Shown here in pieces: positions 2,045 to 3,293 of a stretch of 38,212 bases of DNA (positions are counted from its first letter, which is position 1; every line of letters begins with the position of its first letter). The translations under genes were made by a program, and so were the position numbers. The DNA lies in assembly GCA_019637315.1 (NCBI GenBank), contig JAHBVU010000011.1, forward strand, positions 71,242 through 109,453. Direction: 5' to 3'. The notes under the pieces were generated by a model. It saw only the letters and a list, made by a program, of their open reading frames with translations. It ran no database searches and had not been told where the DNA came from. The stretch comes from Gemmatimonadales bacterium. GTDB taxonomy: Bacteria; Gemmatimonadota; Gemmatimonadetes; Gemmatimonadales; GWC2-71-9.

Positions 2045-2073
2045 TTGACGCTCTGCCGCGCCGTCCGTATTAT
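2045..2073 (+). promoter_or_regulatory. Sigma70-type promoter of the 6S-like RNA
   Basis: TTGACG (2045-2050), a 17-nt spacer, then TATTAT (2068-2073). The predicted transcription start, about 2079-2081, falls at the first bases of the 20-bp closing stem of the downstream RNA. Strong match in both hexamers and spacing. Confidence 0.75.
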
Positions 2074-2074
2074 A
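2069..2074 (-). promoter_or_regulatory. -10 element for the minus-strand envelope operon
   Basis: A perfect TATAAT reading on the minus strand, about 48 nt upstream of the small membrane-protein GTG. No convincing -35 is seen at 16-18 nt. The same bases form the -10 of the divergent RNA promoter, so the two promoters overlap back to back and may compete. Confidence 0.45.
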
Positions 2075-2079
2075 GAGGC

Positions 2080-2242
2080 GTCGGCTGGTGACTGGGAACC
2101 ACGTTATTGAGCCAACAGGTCCGAGGTTGGGCCCACATACTGTAGGTGATGCCATGCCCCCCAGGGGAAGGCAGATCTTGTGGTGAGGGCGCCGAACATT
2201 CTTCTTCGGGCTTCAAGAAACCTCCTGGTTGCCAGTCGACGC
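2080..2242 (+). ncRNA. ssrS: Probable 6S RNA
   Basis: A non-coding interval that folds like 6S RNA, the RNA that mimics an open promoter and binds sigma70 RNA polymerase. Bases 2078-2097 pair with 2223-2242 as 20 consecutive base pairs, five of them G-U, closing the molecule. Inside lies a long, weakly paired region. The apical arm around 2149-2172 pairs GCC with GGC and CCCC with GGGG. On the 3' side, a small hairpin pairs TTCTT (2202-2206) with AAGAA (2215-2219); it follows an ACATTC also found at the equivalent place in the E. coli RNA. Length (about 163 nt), own promoter, terminator and architecture all fit. Sequence identity to known 6S RNAs is low, so a lineage-specific RNA of other function cannot be excluded. 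Confidence 0.7.
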
Positions 2243-2244
2243 TT

Positions 2245-2286
2245 GGGGCGCCGATCGACGCGAGTCGGGTCGGCGCCTCTCGTTTT
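2245..2286 (+). terminator. Intrinsic terminator after the 6S-like RNA
   Basis: A GC-rich 12-bp stem (2245-2256 with the GGTCGGCGCCTC arm ending at 2279) is continued by GAC/GTC around a GCGA tetraloop with one bulged G, and followed by TCTCGTTTT. Because of this terminator the pterin gene at 2318 may need read-through or its own promoter. Confidence 0.65.
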
Positions 2287-2317: not shown

Positions 2318-2731
2318 ATGGCTCACTGCGTGGTCGCGCGCCGCTTGCATTTCAATGCTGCGCACAGGCTGCACAACCCTGCTCGCTCCGAGGAATGGAA
2401 CCGGAGCACCTTCGGGGTGTGTAACAACCCCAACTACCACGGCCACAACTACGAGCTGGATGTCCTGGTCGAAGGCGAAATCGACCCCGAGACCGGCTAC
2501 GTCGTCGACGTTGCCGTTCTCAAAGCCATTGCGCAGGAGCACGTTCTCGATCTGCTCGACCATCGGAATCTGAACCTCGACGTACCCTGGTTCAGCACCC
2601 GCCTGCCGTCGGCGGAGAATATCGCGATCTTCTGCTGGGAGCAGATCGCACCGAGACTGCCGGCCGGGCGCCTCAAACTGATTCGGCTCTGGGAGACGCC
2701 GCGGAACTATGTCGAATACCACGGGTCCTGA
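2318..2731 (+). CDS. 6-pyruvoyl-tetrahydropterin synthase family protein, animal-type motif
   Basis: A 137-residue enzyme of the PTPS/QueD fold, which converts dihydroneopterin triphosphate. Zinc ligands are His16 (FNAAHRL) and His41/His43 (YHGHNY). The catalytic Cys35 lies in [13 protein letters not shown], with five residues between Cys and HGH. That spacing, together with [17 protein letters not shown] (Asp81-His82) and ETPRN (Glu126), follows the mammalian PTPS pattern rather than the CxxxHGH of QueD. I therefore favour 6-pyruvoyl-tetrahydropterin synthase, a tetrahydrobiopterin route, over the queuosine enzyme. Start ATG 2318 has GAGAGG 11 nt upstream. It overlaps folE, which supplies its substrate, by 23 nt. 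No sepiapterin reductase is present in the window. Confidence 0.88.
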
Positions 2732-3293
2732 TTTCGAGCAGCACATTCTCGCCATTCTCGAGGCGCTGGGAGAGGACCCTGCGCGCGATGGACTGGTGCG
2801 TACCCCGGAGCGGGTTGCCAAGGCCTACCGCTGGATGACGCGCGGCTATGAGATGTCGGTGGCCGAGGTGGTGGGGGACGGCGTCTTCGACGAAAGCCAC
2901 GAGAACATGATCCTGGTGCGCGACATCGAGTTGTACTCGATGTGCGAGCATCATATGCTGCCCTTCTTCGGCAAGGCGCATGTCGCGTATCTCCCGGCGG
3001 GCAAGATTATCGGGCTGTCGAAGCTGCCCCGGATCGTGGATGTCTTTGCCCGCCGTCTGCAGGTGCAGGAGCGCCTGACCGATCAGGTGGCCGATGCCGT
3101 GATGGACGTGCTCCATCCCCGTGGCGTCGGCGTCGTGATCGAGGCGTCGCACCTCTGCATGATGATGCGCGGTGTCGAGAAGCAGAACTCGACGACCATC
3201 ACCAGCGCGCTGCGGGGCGTCTTTCGCGACGACGCGCGGACGCGGGAGGAGTTCCTCCGCCTGGTGCACGGACCGCGGACCCAGACGATCTGA
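2709..3293 (+). CDS. folE: GTP cyclohydrolase I
   Basis: A 194-residue cytosolic enzyme that converts GTP to 7,8-dihydroneopterin triphosphate, the first step of folate and biopterin synthesis. The family signature is complete: zinc ligands Cys79 and His82 in [10 protein letters not shown], and Cys150 in [11 protein letters not shown]. Other family landmarks are [10 protein letters not shown] near residue 31, [19 protein letters not shown] and the QVQERLT segment. Length is typical of the bacterial type IA enzyme. The gene overlaps the PTPS gene by 23 nt and is followed after 3 nt by the next gene, so all three probably share one transcript. Confidence 0.97.

Follow-up and report, generated by a model that had tools for sequence, protein, structure and literature searches.

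A diverged 6S RNA gene conserved in the Gemmatimonadota and mostly missed by the standard model

Main

Positions 2080–2240 (+) of a 38,212-nucleotide stretch of a Gemmatimonadales genome (phylum Gemmatimonadota; assembly GCA_019637315.1, contig JAHBVU010000011.1; the whole stretch is hereafter called the window) form a 6S RNA gene. Elsewhere in bacteria, 6S RNA is a small RNA that mimics an open promoter and restrains RNA polymerase. The present analysis establishes the gene and its conservation, the fold of the RNA and the kinship with 6S RNA by homology, and the best explanation, to which we assign a probability of about 0.95, is a free-standing ssrS homologue whose product is a promoter-mimicking rod acting on RNA polymerase. 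The Gemmatimonadota 6S RNA is new to annotation in its lineage and diverged from the standard model; it is ordinary in kind and useful in reach. Our literature search for 6S RNA in Gemmatimonadota, Gemmatimonadetes or Gemmatimonas returned none, a 2014 survey of 6S distribution, where an earlier listing is possible, lying beyond its coverage.

Results

Architecture of the locus

At the level of sequence, the 6S core is flanked by its own promoter and terminator, between which a transcript is predicted (Table 1). The elements TTGACG (2045–2050) and TATTAT (2068–2073) match the consensus at 10 of 12 positions across a 17-nt spacer. The region holds 2 promoter-like sites against 0.3 in shuffles, and a promoter of the same type (TTGAC, 16–18 nt, TAnnnT) precedes most of the 48 relatives aligned below. 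The predicted first base, G2080, lies 7 nt past the −10 hexamer and is the base of the closing stem, and the terminator hairpin stands outside that stem and separate from it. The promoter at 2045–2073, a start placed exactly at the base of the closing stem and a terminator with a GCGA tetraloop had all been proposed in a first-pass annotation of this DNA, and each is found as described. A second promoter-like site, TTCCCA-18-TATAAT, lies on the opposite strand (2098–2069, −), overlaps the 6S promoter and could drive the divergent gene upstream, which encodes a DUF3943 protein.

The plus strand folds much better than its dinucleotide shuffles (z = −4.87). The minus strand folds no better than shuffles (z = −0.85), and a minus-strand RNA was rejected on this ground. 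The fold has the long closing stem, central bubble and apical arm of 6S RNA, with an inner helix at the position that it holds in the Rfam 6S family RF00013; in the window species this helix carries one A–G mismatch (2106/2217). Two details of the first-pass annotation need amending. Its 20-bp closing stem is real but counts 18 bp when measured from the predicted start, and 22 bp when the four bases before that start are included. Of its mostly open interior with a small 3′ hairpin, the hairpin is present in the window sequence, and the interior is less open than described, holding a conserved inner helix as well as the bubble and a long apical arm.

Table 1 Features of the 6S RNA locus, in window coordinates
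Feature	Position	Strand	Basis
Sigma-70-type promoter, TTGACG-N17-TATTAT	2045–2073	+	Sequence; same element before most of 48 relatives
6S RNA gene, mature core of approximately 161 nt	2080–2240	+	R1 (149.1 bits), covariation, bridge to RF00013
Closing stem, 5′ strand, 18 bp	2080–2097	+	8 of 11 modelled pairs (A1) changed on both sides
Inner (P2-like) helix, 5′ strand UUAUUGAGCC, predicted pRNA template	2104–2113	+	98.4% of cells paired, compensatory pairs
AAC triplet; C2116 homologous to E. coli 6S U44, predicted pRNA start (5′-GUUGGCUCAAUAACGUGG)	2114–2116	+	Position, E. coli ssrS
GUCCGA, able to pair with 2206–2211 (UCGGGC) to the exclusion of P2; candidate alternative helix	2119–2124	+	Covariation, energies
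Apical arm (approximate ends), conserved tip UGCCAUGCCCC...GGGGAAGGCA	2126–2191	+	Helices 3–6 of covariation analysis
Small hairpin CCGAA/UUCGG (2192–2196/2205–2209), 3′ side of bubble	2192–2209	+	Window sequence alone
Inner (P2-like) helix, 3′ strand GGCUUCAAGAA	2209–2219	+	Covariation, sequence
Closing stem, 3′ strand	2223–2240	+	Fold and covariation
Terminator hairpin with GCGA loop (2247–2277) and T-rich tail TCTCGTTTT	2247–2286	+	Sequence, fold

Covariation and distribution in the phylum

Of 60 related genomes, most yielded relatives in DNA searches. Aligning 48 sequences gave A1, on which a covariance model (R1) was built; A1 supports all four elements of the fold (the closing stem, the inner helix, the bubble and the apical arm), with 93.5% of cells paired. 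Both partners changed in 22 of the 37 pairs, yielding 149 such cells compared with 46.6 in shuffles; none of 500 shuffles scored as high as A1, and every measure collapsed once the pairing partners were slid. Covariance of the closing stem in relatives, named beforehand as one of the points on which the 6S proposal could fail, is present (Table 1). An 87-sequence alignment (A2), drawn from named records but fitted to the model, agrees with the A1 fold.

R1 matches the window over 2076–2244 and finds the RNA in 279 of 298 Gemmatimonadota genomes, almost always in one copy; the named records that it matches are Gemmatimonadota and include Gemmatimonas and Gemmatimonas phototrophica. Two R1 matches each occur in four genomes (G268, G029, G284 and G237), which may hold a second 6S copy or reflect duplication in the assembly. 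In a separate class (f11), six genomes gave no R1 match in the whole-genome scan, and two loci of these genomes (L204 and L208) match R1 and RF00013 weakly. In one genome (G053, L034:1718–1969) a long imperfect inverted repeat directly follows the 6S RNA and attracts spurious miRNA and UTR matches in Rfam. Loci in Opitutales (L101:1265–1387) and Anaerolineales (L079:2251–2358) that carry UUGAGCCAACA...GGGCUUCAA may be either 6S RNAs or fortuitous pattern matches; their weak R1 matches (13 bits) carry no weight because the loci were preselected by pattern.

Continuity with accepted 6S RNAs

Rfam at gathering scores found nothing over the window, and at E 10 the neighbourhood of the locus gave no 6S match but only chance-level ones (mir-639, guanidine-III and P6 among them); RF00013 likewise had no 6S match anywhere in the source genome, as the first-pass annotation had foreseen in warning that standard models may miss the RNA. 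The bridge to the accepted family runs instead through other Gemmatimonadota. RF00013 matches 32 of the 298 genomes at E 1, only 3 of them above its cut-off of 46.4 bits, and at 21 of 22 RF00013 loci examined (18 from the 298-genome scan and four from another RF00013 search) R1 matches the same place. Two homologues match both models at one place with RF00013 scores beyond the cut-off that the window copy does not reach: L202, which lies outside A1 and was not used for R1 (RF00013 56.6 bits, R1 78.4 bits), and L203 (53.3 and 37.1 bits). The Gemmatimonadota family is therefore continuous with accepted 6S RNA, and because these two pass, the failure of RF00013 on the window copy is a matter of divergence from the model, not of unrelatedness. 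The family and the RF00013 consensus have in common the core of the bubble, UGAGCCGAUA...GGGCUUCAA, and the tip of the apical arm, which also appears in RF00013 alignments. Together, the co-located loci, the scores of L202 and L203 and the common core and tip lead us to conclude that the family is homologous to accepted 6S RNA. When all RF00013-found loci were left out of an nhmmer profile, the profile nonetheless retrieved them, with E values from 1e-16 to 1e-24.

The one exception among the 22 loci, L201 (G304:C266), scores 62.5 bits with RF00013, goes unrecognised by R1 and sits on a 3.2-kb contig; since the G304 genome carries its R1 copy elsewhere, we judge it to be probably foreign DNA contaminating that assembly.

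With compensatory changes in the closing stem, near-universal and mostly single-copy presence in the phylum and relatives above the Rfam 6S cut-off, the proposal of a lineage-specific 6S RNA is borne out. A global transcription regulator is thus present across the whole phylum, yet annotation pipelines would report it as absent because just 3 of 298 genomes score above the RF00013 cut-off, and for one of these the score probably comes from foreign DNA. R1 provides a direct means of annotating Gemmatimonadota 6S RNA.

Predicted pRNA start and release

By analogy with the 6S family, we expect expression, processing, polymerase binding, pRNA synthesis and release to run as follows. The housekeeping-type promoter would give a transcript of approximately 205 nt, presumably trimmed to approximately 161–165 nt, and the rod with its central bubble would mimic an open promoter and bind the housekeeping sigma–RNA polymerase holoenzyme. 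When nucleotides return, the polymerase would copy the 5′ side of the bubble from C2116 into a pRNA, predicted to read GUUGGCUCAAUAAC...; its synthesis would open the inner helix and free GGGC to pair with GUCC, as in the collapse helix of B. subtilis 6S-1 RNA, and formation of that helix would release the polymerase. The candidate pairing GUCCGA/UCGGGC accords with how PMC8876501 defines a central bubble collapse helix. Its cells are paired at 93.4% and its covariation score lies above all 500 of 500 shuffles, two-sided changes being few, and the alternative folds, with the inner helix or with GUCCGA/UCGGGC, are about equal in energy (−72.2 and −71.5 kcal/mol).

The R-A-Y triplet that follows GAGCC corresponds by position to G42-A43-U44 of E. 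coli 6S. The pRNA of E. coli is AUCGGCUCAGGGGACU, and that of B. subtilis 6S-1 starts GUUCGGUCA (PMC12005410). The first 9 nt of the predicted pRNA are GUUGGCUCA in 89 sequences, including the window, and AUCGGCUCA in 42; AUCGGCUCA is also how the first 9 nt of the E. coli pRNA read (PMC12005410). The template sequence is conserved and, in part of the phylum, equals that of E. coli, the pRNA itself being predicted. Across 127 sequences from A1 and A2, most collected with a pattern that permitted all four combinations, the triplet is AAC in 84, GAU in 42, GAC in one and AAU in none. A rough tree, built from the RNA with the triplet removed and noisy at approximately 165 bases, implies about ten coupled switches between AAC and GAU. 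No pairing explains the coupling, and mutual information in A1 pointed to no convincing third site that pairs with the triplet. We tentatively suggest, as a rather doubtful reading, that the pRNA start might have two coupled, interchangeable states, a GTP-started GUU and an ATP-started AUC, that switch as a unit; these are the triplets of the B. subtilis and E. coli pRNA starts, respectively. If so, the first three pRNA bases would be selected together, perhaps for the nucleotide that triggers polymerase release. The alternation of the predicted start between GUU and AUC within one phylum allows comparative tests of whether the start nucleotide controls 6S release.

Genomic surroundings and alternative readings

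Downstream of the RNA in the window lie genes for PTPS (2318–2728) and FolE (2709–3290), and folE, often with PTPS, follows at about two thirds of the 48 loci. The 6S RNA of the window adjoins pterin/folate genes (PTPS and folE), and that of E. coli adjoins fau (5-formyltetrahydrofolate cyclo-ligase); the loci concerned are 2318–3290 of the window and L170:1342–1890, and folate-related neighbours in both are possibly a coincidence.

This arrangement, together with the terminator hairpin between RNA and gene, is what a riboswitch-like, cis-acting leader or attenuator of PTPS–folE would display. At L021, L026, L031, L039 and L042, however, the same RNA is kept without those genes, and what follows it is a Na+/Ca2+ exchanger gene that runs convergently on the opposite strand, so that there is no downstream cis control there and a general cis-leader role is excluded. 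The RNA is, then, not always upstream of and co-directional with folE/PTPS, and a folate-gene leader was rejected by this synteny in other genera; the homology to RF00013 also argues against it. We regard a leader as very unlikely, and the nearby folE and PTPS genes are not the target of the 6S RNA.

Three observations count against 6S RNA: the RF00013 null at E 10 in the window, the lack of an R1 match to E. coli ssrS and the inner-helix mismatch in the window species. The first of these would suit some other structured RNA, rod-shaped by coincidence and without kinship to 6S, but the bridging loci contradict such a view, 21 of 22 RF00013 loci falling on the same RNA with two above the cut-off, and so does the conserved occurrence, in some members of the phylum, of the 9-mer of E. 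coli pRNA; we consider it extremely improbable. An RNA of 6S-like shape that binds core polymerase, as Ms1 RNA of Actinobacteria does, is a further reading, since core and holoenzyme binding cannot be distinguished from the fold by itself (PMC9130861). Homology to RF00013 and length nevertheless speak for 6S RNA, the Gemmatimonadota core of 161 nt lying between promoter and terminator without the extra 5′ and 3′ hairpins of Ms1, and we hold an Ms1-like role to be most unlikely.

Comparison with known systems

Ms1 RNA shares with the Gemmatimonadota 6S RNA a rod with a central bubble; a length of approximately 300 nt, extra hairpins at both ends and core polymerase binding are Ms1 features (PMC9130861). 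B. subtilis 6S-1 RNA resembles the window copy in a pRNA starting GUU, as predicted here (PMC12005410), and B. subtilis 6S-1 and Aquifex 6S RNA share with the window copy a possible central bubble collapse helix and a small hairpin on the 3′ side of the bubble (PMC8876501), the sequences being otherwise unlike. The E. coli-type 6S RNA (SsrS, RF00013) has the same closing stem, inner helix, bubble, apical arm, size and core UGAGCCGAUA, and in part of the Gemmatimonadota the same 9-nt pRNA start AUCGGCUCA. It differs in that the Gemmatimonadota RNA scores below the Rfam cut-off nearly everywhere, in its neighbours (zapA–fau in E. coli; folE/PTPS or a Na+/Ca2+ exchanger gene in Gemmatimonadota) and in its 9-bp 3′ hairpin, in place of which the Gemmatimonadota RNA has a possible collapse helix.
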